Of a DNA stretch of 36,834 nucleotides, positions 1 through 36,834 are shown in pieces (position 1 is the stretch's first letter; every line of letters starts with the position of its first letter). A program made the translations under genes and the position numbers. The stretch is taken from IMG/VR virus record IMGVR_UViG_3300027782_000008, positions 1 through 36,834 of that record. One strand, given 5' to 3'. The stretch comes from a virus. The notes below the pieces were generated by a model. That model had not been told where the DNA came from. It did not search any database and saw only the letters and a list, made by a program, of their open reading frames with translations.

Positions 1-127
1 GCATAATCATCAAAAACGGTTTTAAAGCGACGACCTAACATAACTGACACAATGCCTAAAGCAGTTTGAGCTGCAAAGGCCGGTTGTGGAATCTTAGCGG
101 TTGCATTGTAATAGTCTTGAATATCAC
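1..127. repeat. Terminal overlap copy 1 (circular assembly)
   Basis: These 127 bases are identical to the last 127 bases of the window (36708-36834). An exact overlap of this length at both ends of a contig is the usual signature of a circular molecule closed at an assembler k-mer of 127. The primase-polymerase reading frame continues in frame through it. It is therefore not a biological terminal repeat. Confidence 0.93.
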
Positions 128-1160
128 CCAAAATACCCGGCAACCGTTCGACTTCACTATAAATGGGTGCGTCTGGTTTGATATACAGTAATTCAGGTGA
201 CCAAGTGATTTGACTAATCACCGGCTTATTAACCCATCCGGCCTCCATTGCCATTTTAAAAATGGTTGCTTTGGTAATACCGGATAGGCCTTTACGCTTA
301 AAACTGTTCCAGACTTTGAGCTGGTCTTTGTAATCGTATTTATCAGAGCGTTGTGACCAATCGCACCACAAGTCAAAACCAGCACCACCGCCTAAATCAT
401 TTTGTAGAGCCATACCGACTTGATACCAAATATCACGATCAGACGCATCAATAAAAAATAAAGCGGCTTCCAGTTCGATTAATTCACCATCGGATAAAGG
501 AATGGCAGGACTGACGGCATCATCAGCTAATACCATCTTAGTACGTGCTAAATCACGCAACCAATCCGGTAATGGAGAAGCAATCGCACCATTTAAAGGA
601 TCACTGGATGCTTCCCAGGTATACGAGCCACCACTAAAATGATTAGAGGGTTCAAGGACAATATAACCGTTTGCTTTAACATCAATGCCTTTACCCAATT
701 TACCGGGTAAGGTTTGATTAGCGGGTAATTGAAAGATTCGATGCTCACCACCACCGCCGGTATATTGCAAAACATCCGATAATAAAGGTCCGTGTTCGGC
801 TTCTATCGTTTCAATGGTATACATACCCCCATTACGCGGATCTATATCAATGGCACATAAATTGGATGAGGCTAAATGAGCCGCGATGTTGGCTTCTGGA
901 TAACTACCCCACCACTTCTTAATCAGTGCGCGGTCAGTGGTTGCATTGTCTTGTCCTTTGGGCGCTAACTTATGCAGAGGATGCTTGCCTGAATTACTGC
1001 AATCTAATTCACCGCACGCACATTGACCATCTGCCTTGACATTCCAAAGCGGGAAAATATGCCAGCCTAAAGCCGCATAACGCAACGCATAGCCCAGCCT
1101 TGATTCAAGATCAATGGTTGGCTCTGCATTACTAACGACTAACTCTATTTGTGCTGACAT
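1..1160 (-). CDS. Prim-Pol/DUF3987 replication protein, N-terminal part
   Basis: This is the N-terminal 386 or so residues of a 761-residue protein whose remainder is at 35582-36707 across the circular junction; 1160 + 1126 bases is exactly 762 codons. Residues 20-200 look like a bifunctional archaeo-eukaryotic primase-polymerase domain: the catalytic AIDID carboxylates fall at D105/D107 and a GGGGEHR motif puts a histidine at 140. Around residues 210-300 a PriCT-like segment follows (IDASDRDIWYQVGMAL). A cysteine-rich insert (CACGELDC, residues 47-54) may bind zinc. The product probably primes phage DNA synthesis. ATG at 1160 has no clear Shine-Dalgarno sequence. The gene sits just downstream of the terminator of the leftward switch genes. 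Confidence 0.87.
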   Translation of the reverse strand, partial: MSAQIELVVSNAEPTIDLESRLGYALRYAALGWHIFPLWNVKADGQCACGELDCSNSGKHPLHKLAPKGQDNATTDRALIKKWWGSYPEANIAAHLASSNLCAIDIDPRNGGMYTIETIEAEHGPLLSDVLQYTGGGGEHRIFQLPANQTLPGKLGKGIDVKANGYIVLEPSNHFSGGSYTWEASSDPLNGAIASPLPDWLRDLARTKMVLADDAVSPAIPLSDGELIELEAALFFIDASDRDIWYQVGMALQNDLGGGAGFDLWCDWSQRSDKYDYKDQLKVWNSFKRKGLSGITKATIFKMAMEAGWVNKPVISQITWSPELLYIKPDAPIYSEVERLPGILGDIQDYYNATAKIPQPAFAAQTALGIVSVMLGRRFKTVFDDY

Positions 1161-2724: not shown

Positions 2725-2928
2725 ATGAATAAAGACTTTATACGTGGATTTTGGCAAGGGCTTTCTGGTTCAGTATTATGGGAAGCTCCAGAATTTCCAA
2801 AGACTAAACTGCTGCAAATTGCAATCGACAAAAGAACAGATACTGAAAAATTACAGGGCGATTGGAAAAAAATAGGAGGAGATTTTAATGTCGCAATTAA
2901 CAGATTCCAACGGAATAGTGGACGATAA
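2725..2928 (+). CDS. Small hypothetical protein in the repressor operon
   Basis: A 67-residue protein with a good ribosome site (AGGAG about eight bases before ATG). It begins MNKDFIRGFWQGLSGSVLW, a pattern I associate with short phage proteins of unknown role, and the remainder is basic and polar. Its last 41 bases overlap the start of the DUF2335-like gene in another frame, so the two are probably translated together. No function can be assigned. Confidence 0.65.
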   Translation: MNKDFIRGFWQGLSGSVLWEAPEFPKTKLLQIAIDKRTDTEKLQGDWKKIGGDFNVAINRFQRNSGR

Positions 2929-3265
2929 CAACGATAATAGCGCAATTATTGCATCTCAATGGCAAGGCCCACTCCCTCCTCCATCAGTATTAAAAGATTT
3001 TGATTTAATTATTGAAAATGGGGCAGAACGTATCATGCACATGGCAGAGCTTGAGCAAATCCATAGACATGATTATGAAATAAAAATATTAAGACAAGAA
3101 TCATCATCAATATTTAATGGGCAGTGGCTTGGAGCCTTTGCGGCTACATCATCTATAGCAGCTGCTACATTTACCGCTTATATTGGCGCTCATTGGGCAG
3201 TATCATGCGCTTTAGTTGGCGTTCCCATGCTTGGAATAGTAAAAGCAATCGTAAATAGAAAATAA
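2888..3265 (+). CDS. DUF2335-like membrane protein
   Basis: A 125-residue protein preceded by AGGAGG. The segment QWQGPLPPPSVLKDF, then GAERIMHMAELEQIHRHDYE, is the hallmark of DUF2335 membrane proteins. Two hydrophobic segments follow (about residues 80-98 and 103-118). It is the last gene of the repressor transcript and is followed by a terminator at 3291-3314. Membrane proteins made in the lysogen often alter superinfection, but nothing in the sequence proves that here. Confidence 0.78.
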   Translation: MSQLTDSNGIVDDNNDNSAIIASQWQGPLPPPSVLKDFDLIIENGAERIMHMAELEQIHRHDYEIKILRQESSSIFNGQWLGAFAATSSIAAATFTAYIGAHWAVSCALVGVPMLGIVKAIVNRK

Positions 3266-3642: not shown

Positions 3643-3846
3643 ATGAATACAAAATTAAGCAAGTTAATCACCATCGCCATCGTTTTTGGCTTAGGCATAG
3701 CAGTTGACCAAGTATATAGCTCAGAAGCTTACACCAAGCTTTGGGTTACTCGTTCAGGCACGTTTTGCATCAAATCTAACCGTATCTATGAACTGACTGA
3801 ACTGGAAACAGCTTATACACCTATCGACAAGGGGTTAATGAAATGA
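3643..3846 (+). CDS. Small protein with N-terminal membrane/signal segment
   Basis: A 67-residue protein. ATG at 3643 has GGAGA seven bases upstream; the longer GTG-initiated frame from 3583 would lie within the leader stem and is rejected. Residues 4-20 (LSKLITIAIVFGLGIAV) form a signal or membrane anchor, and the rest would be outside the cytoplasm. First gene of the early operon, overlapping the next by four bases (ATGA). Function unknown. Confidence 0.7.
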   Translation: MNTKLSKLITIAIVFGLGIAVDQVYSSEAYTKLWVTRSGTFCIKSNRIYELTELETAYTPIDKGLMK

Positions 3847-4079
3847 GCAATTTAATCATGAAAGACCAAGCGCCACGCCTGCGCCAAAGAATGTTGGACG
3901 AACACGATCAGCATTGGCATGAGGAAGAAAAGCAGATGGTAAGCGGCAAGATTGCTTTTGCATTTCTCATGACGCTGGTATTGATTGCATTACTGGCGGT
4001 TTATGTGCCGGTTGAAGCGAGCACGTCATGGCAAGCGGTGTCTGACCAATCGCTAGTTGATATGTACGGGGAGGAGTAA
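3843..4079 (+). CDS. Small single-pass membrane protein
   Basis: A 78-residue protein, translationally coupled to the preceding gene by an ATGA overlap. A highly charged N-terminal 37 residues (DEHDQHWHEEEKQ) precedes one transmembrane segment (IAFAFLMTLVLIALLAVYV, about residues 38-56). A short acidic tail follows. Its early expression suggests a role in takeover of the cell or superinfection immunity, but no family is recognised. Confidence 0.68.
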   Translation: MSNLIMKDQAPRLRQRMLDEHDQHWHEEEKQMVSGKIAFAFLMTLVLIALLAVYVPVEASTSWQAVSDQSLVDMYGEE

Positions 4080-4282
4080 TGAACTTAGAAGTAATCTTAG
4101 ACGGCATTGCCTTTAATGTCGATTTCGACTACCAACCGAAAGAAATGGAAACGATGTATCAGCCAGGCTGCCCAGCAGAAATAGACATCACTGGCGTATC
4201 AATGCAAGGCATTGCAGTAGGGGAAATTATCAACCCTTACTGGATTGATAGAATTTCAGAAGAATTAATGGAGATGCACTAA
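4079..4282 (+). CDS. Hypothetical early protein
   Basis: A 67-residue acidic protein whose ATG overlaps the previous stop by one base (TAATG). The N-terminus MNLEVILDGIAFNVDFDYQP looks like a beta hairpin, and the C-terminus is helical (RISEELMEMH). Position in an unbroken chain of overlapping genes supports that it is real. Function not recognised. Confidence 0.65.
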   Translation: MNLEVILDGIAFNVDFDYQPKEMETMYQPGCPAEIDITGVSMQGIAVGEIINPYWIDRISEELMEMH

Positions 4283-30014: not shown

Positions 30015-31280
30015 TTATATTCCTAAAATCTTTAATGATTGATATGGTCGAATGACTGGAAACTCGTATGCTATCGGGTAGCCTGATGCGTCGTTTTGGT
30101 GGTCGAACCCACTCTTTTTATCAGGCTCGCCATTTTTATCGTATGCTTGTTGCTCAAAATTACTGGCCATCGTTTGGCATAATTTAGAGTTAATAAATAA
30201 CTTCCCATCTTCAAACTGCTTATTAACAGATAGTATTCGGTCTTTAACGAATGGATTAGTTGACTTAACCCTAACCTCAAACCCTGCTTGTCTCAGTAGT
30301 GCAATATCTGACACGCTGGCATTGACTGATTTTCTTGATCCACCAGATGCGTCTGGGTAGATAATTATTCGATTGTTTGGCCATCGTTCTTTAATGACAT
30401 TTATCATTGATGGCGTATCAAATACATCATGTAGTTCTGACACACCATGCCAGCCAGTAGATCGCTGAACATAGATGCTTGCAGCCATTTTTCCGACGTT
30501 AAAATCAAGGCCGATAAACAAAGACTCTTTACCCTGTATTGTTTCTAAAGATTCGCACCGCTGACGATTGTATGACCGATAAACTGTGCCGGTAGTTAAA
30601 TTACAGAACTTGCCATCAATGTAAGCGTCAATTAATTCGGCTGGATAGGTATCAATTAATGATTGTATATATCCGTCAGGTAGGTTTTTAGCGTTAGCTC
30701 TTGTCGATGCTTGGATTAATCCATAAAGACTTGATAGGTTTGGCTTGTTGGCTAACTCTGCAACAAATAACCTATGCGTCTCCCTAAATCCCTCGGGTGT
30801 AGTCGTTACATCGGCGCCATTAGTTGCACCTTGCCAACGCAGACGAGCAATGATCTTTCGCCATGCTTGCTGTGCTTTCTTTGGGTCCAATACATCAAGC
30901 TCATCAACGAGAGCATGGCCAATTTTGAATCCAACAATAGTTTGCGGTCGCTCCATACTTCGACAAATCGTTGTTCCTCGATATTTACGCCCACTATAAA
31001 AATGTACTTCCTTGTTTGATTCCATAATGTCAACGCTCAAGCCTAAACCATTGGCGACTTCTTCAATCGTTGGAAAGAAAATATCGCGTATATGCGGATA
31101 AGTGGGTGCAAAATAACCTTGATTAATACCCGGATTGCTCCATATTCTTGCGCACATTGCAGAAGAACCAGCCCACGTCTTTCCGCTTCCATAACCACCA
31201 ACATAGGCTTTAAATTTATGTGGCAATTGAATAAACTCTGATTGCTGAATATTGAGAGCCGGTGAATTACTCGCTTGCAT
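30015..31280 (-). CDS. terL: Terminase large subunit
   Basis: A 421-residue protein from ATG at 31280 (AGGG upstream); the frame also opens at TTG 31286. ATPase: Walker A GGYGSGKT at about 28-35 and Walker B HALVDELD. Nuclease: acidic residues in FIGLDFNVGKM and IIIYPDASGG. It overlaps TerS by 14 bases. Circular permutation of the assembly is compatible with headful packaging, though the packaging type cannot be read directly. Confidence 0.92.
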   Translation of the reverse strand: MQASNSPALNIQQSEFIQLPHKFKAYVGGYGSGKTWAGSSAMCARIWSNPGINQGYFAPTYPHIRDIFFPTIEEVANGLGLSVDIMESNKEVHFYSGRKYRGTTICRSMERPQTIVGFKIGHALVDELDVLDPKKAQQAWRKIIARLRWQGATNGADVTTTPEGFRETHRLFVAELANKPNLSSLYGLIQASTRANAKNLPDGYIQSLIDTYPAELIDAYIDGKFCNLTTGTVYRSYNRQRCESLETIQGKESLFIGLDFNVGKMAASIYVQRSTGWHGVSELHDVFDTPSMINVIKERWPNNRIIIYPDASGGSRKSVNASVSDIALLRQAGFEVRVKSTNPFVKDRILSVNKQFEDGKLFINSKLCQTMASNFEQQAYDKNGEPDKKSGFDHQNDASGYPIAYEFPVIRPYQSLKILGI

Positions 31281-31800
31281 CGACAACCCTAAACACTATT
31301 TGTTTTGGTTCTGGCGGCTCATCATCGTTCTTATTTATATCTTCGATGGTCTTTTTATTGGCATTAAGCAGATTCATACCGATAGTGCTTGAATCATTTG
31401 CCAGCTTTGTTAAGATCGCTATGTTTTGAAGCGCATCTGTTGACTGGCTTGGATTAACCTCGTCTATCTTATCAACCTGGTCATTTGCCATTCCTGATAA
31501 TCTATGCGCGGTCATTGCTCCATACTTTCCAGCACCTGCTAAATGACTTGATATTGCTTTTAATTCATCTGCTAAGGTTCGCGCACTGATTTGCGAACTA
31601 ATAGGCAATGATGACAGCGCTTCTTCTGCTTTAACTAATTGATTAGCAACTTTTTTTATTTCTTTAGTTTGCGAACCAAACCTTTTTCTTATTGCTGTCT
31701 CTGAGATGCCAAATTCACGAGCTAAAGAACGCCCTTTCTCCCCTGCAAGTAAGCGTAATCTTATTGCTTCCCACTGTTTTGGGGTGAGTGGTGATGCCAT
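31267..31800 (-). CDS. terS: Terminase small subunit
   Basis: A 177-residue protein. The N-terminal HTH (TPKQWEAIRLRLLAGEKGRSLAREFGISETAIRKRFG) would recognise the packaging site. A central helical oligomerisation region (KVANQLVKAEEALSSLP, then LADELKAISSHLAGAG) precedes an acidic tail (NKNDDEPPEP). It overlaps TerL, as usual for the pair. Confidence 0.83.
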   Translation of the reverse strand: MASPLTPKQWEAIRLRLLAGEKGRSLAREFGISETAIRKRFGSQTKEIKKVANQLVKAEEALSSLPISSQISARTLADELKAISSHLAGAGKYGAMTAHRLSGMANDQVDKIDEVNPSQSTDALQNIAILTKLANDSSTIGMNLLNANKKTIEDINKNDDEPPEPKQIVFRVVDASE

Positions 31801-34796: not shown

Positions 34797-34979
34797 TTAG
34801 CAATCCACAAAAATTAAGTTTGTCAGCAATTCTCGTATTGTTAAGCCAGAGCAGTGACCTTCTCCATCATGGTCAAACAACCACCACCGACCAAATTCCT
34901 TGCTAAAGTAATAGCCTTGCTCTAATCGTGTTTCGAGCAACTCAAACACAGGGTATAAGTCATCGGTTTTTTTAGCCAT
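34797..34979 (-). CDS. Small hypothetical protein
   Basis: A 60-residue protein whose ATG shares a base with the RusA stop (TAATG). The sequence (LYPVFELLETRLEQGYYFSKEFGRWWLFDHDGEGH) is aromatic and acidic. Coupled to RusA, so perhaps a replication/recombination accessory. Not recognised. Confidence 0.6.
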   Translation of the reverse strand: MAKKTDDLYPVFELLETRLEQGYYFSKEFGRWWLFDHDGEGHCSGLTIRELLTNLIFVDC

Positions 34980-35344
34980 TAAACAATCTCTCTAATTTGC
35001 ACCAGCATTTTCCCGCCTGGTATTTTTTCGCATCGAGTCACGCTTAACTGATCGACTTGTTCATCATCCAGCCATACCCCTGCGTGTGTTAACGCATCCA
35101 AGCAACTCTTAATACGATTATCAATGTCATACTTCCTCAGCGTAGGCGCATACAAAGCAATATCGACCATTACCCGACCTGTTAGCGTGTTTAAGCCGAT
35201 TTCTTTAATTAGCCTATTTACGGCCTGCTTAAACTCTGTTCCTTCCTTGCTGATATAAATTTGCGCCCTTCTTCCTATTACTCGATGCTTCCAGTAGTGG
35301 TTGATTGATGGCGGCCAAGGTAGCGTTAATGTTGTTATGTTCAT
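34979..35344 (-). CDS. rusA: RusA-like Holliday junction resolvase
   Basis: A 121-residue protein, the normal RusA length. ATG at 35344 is chosen because the family starts with the LPWPPSINHYWKH motif here; the open frame back to 35530 is repeat DNA. The catalytic acidic residues of RusA fit DIALYAP and KYDIDNRIKSCLDALTHAGVWLDDEQV. It resolves branched DNA before packaging. The adjacent origin-like region and Prim-Pol make a second replication cluster. Confidence 0.87.
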   Translation of the reverse strand: MNITTLTLPWPPSINHYWKHRVIGRRAQIYISKEGTEFKQAVNRLIKEIGLNTLTGRVMVDIALYAPTLRKYDIDNRIKSCLDALTHAGVWLDDEQVDQLSVTRCEKIPGGKMLVQIREIV

Positions 35345-35610
35345 AATTTTTAATTGACATGAATTGACATGAATTGACATGAATTGGCAGACTTTCAATG
35401 TCAATTTAACCTGTTGATTAATATAATAAATACACATATATATATTGAATTGGCAAATATATAGAGATACATACCTATATTTAGGTATTACAAGGTATGT
35501 ATCGGAAGCCTTGCCAATTTGCCAATTCACCTATTTTCTTTTTAAAATCATCATGTTAAATTGACATTTTTAATTGTCAATTCATGTCAATTCATCATTT
35601 AATTGACTAT
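35345..35610. other. Candidate replication origin with iterons and nested palindromes
   Basis: AT-rich. Three perfect tandem copies of AATTGACATG (35352-35381) plus a degenerate fourth lie on the left; inverted copies within 35575-35594 lie on the right. Between them are nested inverted pairs: 14 bp (35397-35410 with 35555-35568), 12 bp (35447-35458 with 35517-35528), 11 bp GATACATACCT (35466-35476 with 35493-35503), and a short ACCTA/TAGGT cruciform at 35473-35486. It lies beside Prim-Pol and RusA. A regulatory region of the same genes is the alternative. Confidence 0.62.
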
Positions 35611-36834
35611 TTATAGCCATAAAGACGTTTCTTGGCTTACCTGGCTTACCTTCACGAGTATTCACCAAAGCAATTAATTCAGCTTTTAGTAGTGACTGGA
35701 TGACGTCGCCAAGATCTTTTTCTTTAAACTTGGTAAACGGTGCAACCCGATTCATGTCACGCTCTGAATAACCCGCTTTCTTACTTCTAATGGCTGCCAA
35801 AACATCATGCTTGGCTTGTTGAAATTCTGATCCAACAATGTTCTCCTTAACATCAGTCACAACAGCCAAAGATAACTTATCCATATAACGCACAGCAGTA
35901 GTGGCGTGATCTTCTTCAATGGTGGTAGCAAAAGGATTAACAGCCAAAGCAACCACCAAGGACACGCGACCCGCAAACTCGCCATAACGACCTACACAAC
36001 CTTCTAAGCCTTCTGCTTCTAATTCATTCATCAAGGCCACCATCTTTTCAGCAAAGGCCGTCAAGCTGTTTTCAGCACCTTCTGTTTCATCAAGAACAAT
36101 CACTTCCCCGGTTACTTCGGGAGAGTTTAAAGAGCAAGAGGCAGGATCATGTTCCATTGCTCGATCATTAATGGCTTTTGACCAGTTGATGATTGCTAAC
36201 GGTACAGATAAAGGCCGTGTTTTTTTAGGTGCAATACGGGGAAGATTACTTTTACAAGTAATAAAGCGACCAAAGAAACCATCCTTAATCATCTCAACTG
36301 TCAGGTTGGAATAAAACGTGGATGGTGTTGTCATTGATTGAATGGTAATGGCGGGGTTTTTAATGGTTAACGAACCCTCAGTATTTTTTGAAGATCCCAG
36401 TGTTGAATAATTCTTTGAGCGGATATCACCACCTAAACGTCCAATACATTCCATCAGGGTCGTATTGGCTGACTTACCAATAAAATTACTTTTACTGTTT
36501 GAGGCTTCCAAATACATACCCAATTCATCAATCACTGAGATATGCACTGGCTTAGTGTTTAACGTCGATAACACAGCACCGGCTGATGTGTAACCATCAC
36601 CCGCTAAAAGCTTTTCCATATCACAGGCTTTCAGCACATCCTCAGTAACCCGTTTAATATGTTCTTTACCGCAAGCTGTCGGTGCAATGTTTAAAAAATA
36701 TAACGAGGCATAATCATCAAAAACGGTTTTAAAGCGACGACCTAACATAACTGACACAATGCCTAAAGCAGTTTGAGCTGCAAAGGCCGGTTGTGGAATC
36801 TTAGCGGTTGCATTGTAATAGTCTTGAATATCAC
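35582..36834 (-). CDS. Prim-Pol/DUF3987 replication protein, C-terminal part
   Basis: This continues the gene that begins at 1160 on the other side of the circular junction; bases 36708-36834 repeat 1-127. The part here resembles DUF3987 (YfjI-like) helicase domains: a degenerate P-loop IAPTACGKEH, a Walker B-like ISVIDELGMY, GFFGRFITCK, and a C-terminal winged helix (YSERDMNRVAPFTKFKEKDLGDVIQSLL). Together with the N-terminal primase it looks like a self-contained primase-helicase. The stop overlaps the right-hand repeats of the origin candidate. Confidence 0.87.
   Translation of the reverse strand, partial: DIQDYYNATAKIPQPAFAAQTALGIVSVMLGRRFKTVFDDYASLYFLNIAPTACGKEHIKRVTEDVLKACDMEKLLAGDGYTSAGAVLSTLNTKPVHISVIDELGMYLEASNSKSNFIGKSANTTLMECIGRLGGDIRSKNYSTLGSSKNTEGSLTIKNPAITIQSMTTPSTFYSNLTVEMIKDGFFGRFITCKSNLPRIAPKKTRPLSVPLAIINWSKAINDRAMEHDPASCSLNSPEVTGEVIVLDETEGAENSLTAFAEKMVALMNELEAEGLEGCVGRYGEFAGRVSLVVALAVNPFATTIEEDHATTAVRYMDKLSLAVVTDVKENIVGSEFQQAKHDVLAAIRSKKAGYSERDMNRVAPFTKFKEKDLGDVIQSLLKAELIALVNTREGKPGKPRNVFMAINSQLNDELT
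36708..36834. repeat. Terminal overlap copy 2 (circular assembly)
   Basis: This is an exact copy of bases 1-127. Removing one copy gives a circle of 36,707 bp in which the primase-polymerase reading frame is intact. Confidence 0.93.

Follow-up and report, generated by a model that had tools for sequence, protein, structure and literature searches.

A mirror-symmetric iteron array directly 3' of a Prim-Pol/DUF3987 gene as the probable replication origin of a temperate tailed phage

Judged from its sequence, a short segment of the window (the whole stretch of DNA that was analyzed, 36,834 nucleotides) is very probably the site at which copying of the phage DNA starts. We consider it likely that positions 35345-35592 constitute a replication origin, which is bound and opened by the adjacent Prim-Pol/DUF3987 protein and supports bidirectional theta replication. 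The array of repeats at this place was read as a phage origin bound by Prim-Pol because of its likeness to the origins of SaPI and PICI elements.

The window is a complete circular genome of a temperate tailed phage. Its first and last 127 bases (1-127 and 36708-36834) are identical, and the record was therefore taken to be a circle of 36,707 bp that had been cut inside the Prim-Pol gene, so that this gene, the putative initiator gene, appears as two partial frames at the window ends. Joined across these ends, the two halves bring Prim-Pol, PriCT_2, and DUF3987 domains together in one protein, as expected of a phrog_3022-type phage primase, and the gene is seen whole (761 amino acids) in the relatives L003/L079. 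The genome also encodes a CI-like repressor, an integrase, a terminase, and portal, head morphogenesis, major head, and tail proteins; virion genes are thus present, whereas a PICI satellite would be without a full set of its own. A predicted membrane protein with a DUF2335 domain (PHROGs class morons/host takeover) is encoded in the early region, at 2888-3265. The features of the array and of its neighborhood are as follows (those given without a strand are unstranded):

35582..36834 (frame to 36832), minus strand: C-terminal part of the Prim-Pol gene, DUF3987 AAA+ and predicted winged helix (Pfam DUF3987, phrog_3022, models)
1..1160 (frame from 3), minus strand: N-terminal remainder of that gene, with Prim-Pol (PF09250) and PriCT_2 domains, continuous with the C-terminal part once the circle is closed
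34979..35344, minus strand: RusA-like resolvase gene, next gene downstream of the array; other genes there in some relatives
35352..35406: outer iteron module, RusA side; AATTGACA (+) at 35352, 35362, and 35372, AATTGGCA (+) at 35382, TGTCAATT (-) at 35399; conserved in L003/L021, L019, L023, L024, L012, and L016
35407..35447: spacer arm of 41 bp, rich in AT, which has TTAACCTGTTGATTAAT next to the outer module; in most relatives the counterpart arms measure 31-51 bp, and TTATAA occurs in many of them
35448..35455, plus strand: inner iteron AATTGGCA
35456..35511: centre, 56 bp, with the 11-bp inverted pair GATACATACCT/AGGTATGTATC (35466-35476, 35493-35503)
35512..35527, minus strand: inner iterons, two abutting copies of AATTGGCA at 35512 and 35520
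35528..35558: spacer arm of 31 bp, likewise rich in AT, which mirrors 35407-35447
35559..35592: outer module of iterons on the Prim-Pol side, with AATTGACA (+) at 35559 and TGTCAATT (-) at 35575 and 35585; overlaps the stop codon 35582-35584

The repeats are real and far beyond chance. Eleven of the 13 AATTGRCA octamers of the whole genome fall within 35352-35592, and the 266-bp segment examined holds 11 of them against a mean of 0.13 and a maximum of 2 in 100 dinucleotide-preserving shuffles. Three perfect AATTGACATG iterons (35352, 35362, 35372) are followed by a fourth, variant one (AATTGGCAGA, 35382), inverted copies lie at 35399, 35575, and 35585, and the set is completed by extra copies of AATTGGCA at 35448(+), 35512(-), and 35520(-) and by AATTGACATT at 35559(+). 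All the repeats described in the earlier note, namely the three perfect iterons and the inverted copies at the far end (35575, 35585), were thus recovered, and the nested symmetric palindrome that it reported turned out to be stronger than noted, since the longest perfect inverted pair measures 21 bp (35359-35379/35575-35595) and not 14. No pair exceeded 12 bp in 100 shuffles or 14 bp in 271 other stretches of the genome. Shorter inverted pairs of 13 bp (35446-35458/35517-35529) and 11 bp (35466-35476/35493-35503) are nested between these arms. The array fills the 237-bp non-coding gap (35345-35581) between the RusA start codon (ATG at 35344) and the Prim-Pol stop, and its arms, as had been claimed, reach the stop codon (35582-35584), cross it, and overlap the last Prim-Pol codons. 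The location between RusA and Prim-Pol was likewise correct, but the gene at the right end is only the DUF3987 helicase half of the split Prim-Pol gene. No intrinsic terminator or known RNA was found.

An AATTGRCA array at the corresponding site, its mirror arrangement retained, was present in L003/L021, L019, L023, L024, L010/L012, and L016 (Prim-Pol identity about 62-100%). More distant Prim-Pol/DUF3987 genes carry, directly 3', arrays built from other words, which overlap the stop codon or come right after it:

GCAGACA: Moraxella phage Mcat10 (L065), L094, L095, L161
GCCGACA: L086, L091, L098
ATTGTTGTC: L087, L089, L092, L093, Psychrobacter L158
ATTCGTC: L085
TGCAACA: L075
GCCCTAC: L072
GAAATTCA: L097
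GCAGGAA: L170

Further words occur besides these. About ten lineages differ in the word and have the same general plan. The 320 bp around and after the Prim-Pol stop were then compared with a control region upstream of the gene in 42 dereplicated homologues. A significant 7-mer array (p <= 0.01) was detected at the 3' place in 18 of the 42, while the upstream region of these homologues contained 2-4 copies at most and no comparable repetition. When 320-bp tiles were laid over all loci, at least five copies of one 7-mer were found in 24/191 tiles near the 3' end of the gene versus 9/1969 elsewhere, and at least two of the latter nine (L101, L066) are again downstream of Prim-Pol. The other 24 of the 42 homologues, including those of Pseudoalteromonas, Roseobacter, and Vibrio phages, have no significant array at the 3' place, a count that takes in very distant homologues and one with a broken frame (L101); the origin of these phages would therefore lie elsewhere or be built differently.

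Several loci deserve separate description. In Pseudomonas phage KP1 (L066), seven copies of AATTGAT lie within 320 bp, about 1.9 kb after Prim-Pol, in a 2-kb stretch without annotated genes, and this cluster may be a displaced origin array. The Prim-Pol frame of L101 (IMGVR_UViG_3300018489_000038) stops early, and a GCCGACA cluster is located 1.1 kb downstream, about where an intact gene would end. The CGCCGAC iteron words of L098, L100, and L102 begin before the predicted Prim-Pol frame has ended, within its final codons; either the array is partly coding or the frame runs past the true end. Moraxella phage Mcat10 (KR093634) has a second array of the same plan at 3908-4120, just after the first one, with the word GTCAATAA/TTATTGAC around GGGGTATAC..GGTATATACCC; since an annotated attL (3801-3813) separates the two, one of them may belong to a neighboring or former prophage. 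Pattern matches for the double iteron in L009, L013, and L017 were rejected as chance hits in other contexts without an array.

The common plan begins with outer iterons, followed by an arm rich in AT and an inward-pointing inner iteron; the centre comes next, and then the mirror image, with arms of about 31-51 bp and centres of 48-72 bp over the family. The lengths (arm/centre/arm, in bp) were:

L065: 48/53/48
L081: 48/56/48
L087: 49/67/49
L089: 48/69/49
L093: 49/62/49
L094: 38/48/39
L067: 39/59/51
Window, read on the Prim-Pol strand: 31/56/41

Despite different iteron words, L065, L081, L087, L089, and L093 keep arms of 48-49 bp and centres of 53-69 bp. TTATAA was found in 10 of 24 arms and in no centre. 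Of 16 centres, 15 contain GGTAT/ATACC, with 31 sites in all where mononucleotide shuffles give 1.7. These counts describe the family and are no blind test, as the boundaries of centres and arms were set, and the motif picked, after viewing the sequences. The 11-bp inverted pair in the centre of the window is one form of this GGTAT/ATACC feature.

The earlier note had proposed, besides an origin-like region tied to Prim-Pol, that RusA might recognise a cruciform here. This enzyme cuts four-way junctions, and a cruciform or hairpin substrate for the neighboring resolvase would agree with the large nested palindrome, which as a single DNA strand folds with z = -9.2, and with RusA being the next gene here and in several relatives. 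We know, though, of no requirement for such a palindromic site in RusA cutting. Arrays remain where the next gene is a DNA methyltransferase (L012), a gene of unknown function (L016/L067), or, at other array loci, a queuine tRNA-ribosyltransferase; since the next gene varies in this way, RusA is not a fixed partner of the array. Furthermore, in 31 RusA loci where no Prim-Pol was detected in the 3.5 kb upstream, no array precedes RusA, the highest 7-mer count there being 2-3, i.e. the level of shuffled sequence, versus 6-8 in RusA loci with Prim-Pol. The cruciform proposal is thus highly improbable, whereas the link to Prim-Pol was borne out by the conservation of the array, in place and geometry, 3' of divergent Prim-Pol/DUF3987 genes, also where the next gene is not RusA.

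The same comparison bears on a regulatory function, in which the octamers would be operator or promoter sites of a phage regulator controlling RusA and later genes. The array does occupy a gap between codirectional genes, its iterons contain TTGACA, and one promoter-like site lies on the minus strand (35580-35553); however, such sites, numbering 4 against 2.9 in shuffles, are not enriched, a mirror-symmetric array of 240 bp with fixed spacers is more than operators require, and the array follows Prim-Pol whatever the next gene is. We therefore regard this explanation as unlikely, although Prim-Pol could regulate its own gene through the array. Still less likely is a packaging (pac/cos) site or another structural site, e.g. 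for partition or recombination: tailed phages need a packaging start site and the terminase genes (30015-31800) are 3.5-5.5 kb further along, yet the array always abuts Prim-Pol and not terminase, and its words change with the Prim-Pol lineage. Finally, the inverted ends and AT-rich interior are reminiscent of a MITE, but there is one copy in this genome, with iteron clusters only at 35352-35592, where a MITE would be expected in multiple copies, and the same site and architecture recur with different words in independently assembled contigs, prophages of sequenced Psychrobacter strains, and a Moraxella phage record, which makes a MITE remnant or an assembly artefact scarcely conceivable.

The origin reading is also consistent with the predicted structure of the putative initiator. 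AlphaFold2 models were built for a close relative (L079) from an alignment of 23 relatives, and reached a mean pLDDT of 82.7 for the whole protein and 87.9 for its C-terminal half. A sequence search of solved structures with the Prim-Pol protein gave no significant relative. By Foldseek, the N-terminal half of the model is a Prim-Pol like that of pRN1, and fold comparison indicated that the helicase domain is MCM-like (Z 19.8, rmsd 3.2-3.3 Å over about 270 residues); a C-terminal winged helix is formed by helices and strands 681-751. The structure matches included the staphylococcal Cch helicase (5dgk) and a viral neighbor annotated as 'NrS-1 polymerase-like HBD'. The prediction for Prim-Pol thus combines an AAA+ helicase resembling MCM with a winged helix at the C terminus. 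A shared fold alone is no proof of function, and we propose that the winged helix might be the iteron-binding domain. Co-variation of the C-terminal domain with the iteron word was present but was dismissed as evidence, because proteins with a common word are more alike in every domain, as common descent alone would produce.

These findings led us to propose the following mechanism. The Prim-Pol/DUF3987 protein would bind the AATTGRCA iterons, most likely via its C-terminal winged helix, and form oligomers on the two mirror-image arms, whereupon ATP-driven remodelling would open the AT-rich arms and the centre. Two MCM-like helicase rings would be loaded in opposite directions, and the N-terminal primase of the same protein would initiate synthesis, with the central ATACC/GGTAT sites as possible priming points; bidirectional theta replication of the circular genome would be the outcome. 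Bidirectional loading, as suggested in the earlier note, would fit the two-fold symmetry of the array. The GC-skew check gave a minimum at 35.3-36.1 kb, close to the array, but the skew varies with the coding strand, and its sign within the Prim-Pol gene is the one expected of transcription and not that of replication, so that this minimum, being confounded by gene strand, lends no independent support to an origin.

More speculatively, tailed phages of this kind may form a widespread class with a one-protein, two-arm origin, in which a Prim-Pol with an MCM-like helicase acts on mirror iteron arms, two rings are placed head to head, priming occurs at GGTAT/ATACC, and origin and protein co-diverge so that each lineage has its own word; we hold this generalization to be possible, though rather doubtful. 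If true, the two-arm Prim-Pol origin would be a bacterial-virus counterpart of the MCM double hexamer. The roughly ten lineages with different words and the same plan offer a test set for the study of origin recognition, opening, and priming by Prim-Pol initiators, and a rule by which origins could be located from sequence in many phage genomes from metagenomes.

Among open-licence papers, we found no described origin for this phage family, and a paper on Moraxella prophages makes no mention of replication origins. The origin of phage P4 has iterons, and P4 needs two separate sites. As proposed here, its alpha protein, acting with ori/crr, joins initiator helicase and primase in one polypeptide (PMC7145576), but it belongs to another protein family. 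The SCCmec helicases Cch and Cch2 resemble the protein proposed here in being self-loading and of initiator type, and the C-terminal domain of Cch2 binds repeats directly downstream of its own gene (PMC7581432); they differ in having a separate primase, three AAGTG iterons, and a chromosomal cassette instead of a phage as their setting. NrS-1 also has a Prim-Pol fused to a ring helicase, and its 8-nt recognition word TTTGGTTA is present in two copies of opposite orientation at the genome centre, which is the suggested origin (PMC7102993, PMC8718748). However, these two copies are described as priming recognition sites, in contrast to the dense iteron array found here, and the C-terminal Head and Tail folds of NrS-1 are described as new, whereas an MCM-like helicase and a winged helix are predicted in our case. 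The closest likeness is to the SaPI/PICI origins. PICI origins follow the 3' end of the initiator gene and consist of an AT-rich region with a set of iterons on either side, rep and ori together drive plasmid replication, and the layout was considered by its authors to be unique to PICIs (PMC6092414); in SaPIs, the C-terminal domain of Rep recognises iterons that lie immediately after the rep gene (PMC7581432), and in PICMI satellites a DUF3987-type primase is needed for full replication (PMC10803314). The window and its relatives have in common with these elements an array directly 3' of the putative initiator gene and an initiator with (here predicted) helicase and, when fused, primase activity. 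They differ in that they are not satellites but complete tailed phages, equipped with genes for terminase, portal, and capsid, in the PrimPol+PriCT_2+DUF3987 composition of the initiator, and in the fixed mirror-image spacing with its GGTAT/ATACC centre. An origin layout reported as satellite-only would thereby also occur in complete phages, where the initiator is of another family, and this has a bearing on the source of the satellites' replicons.
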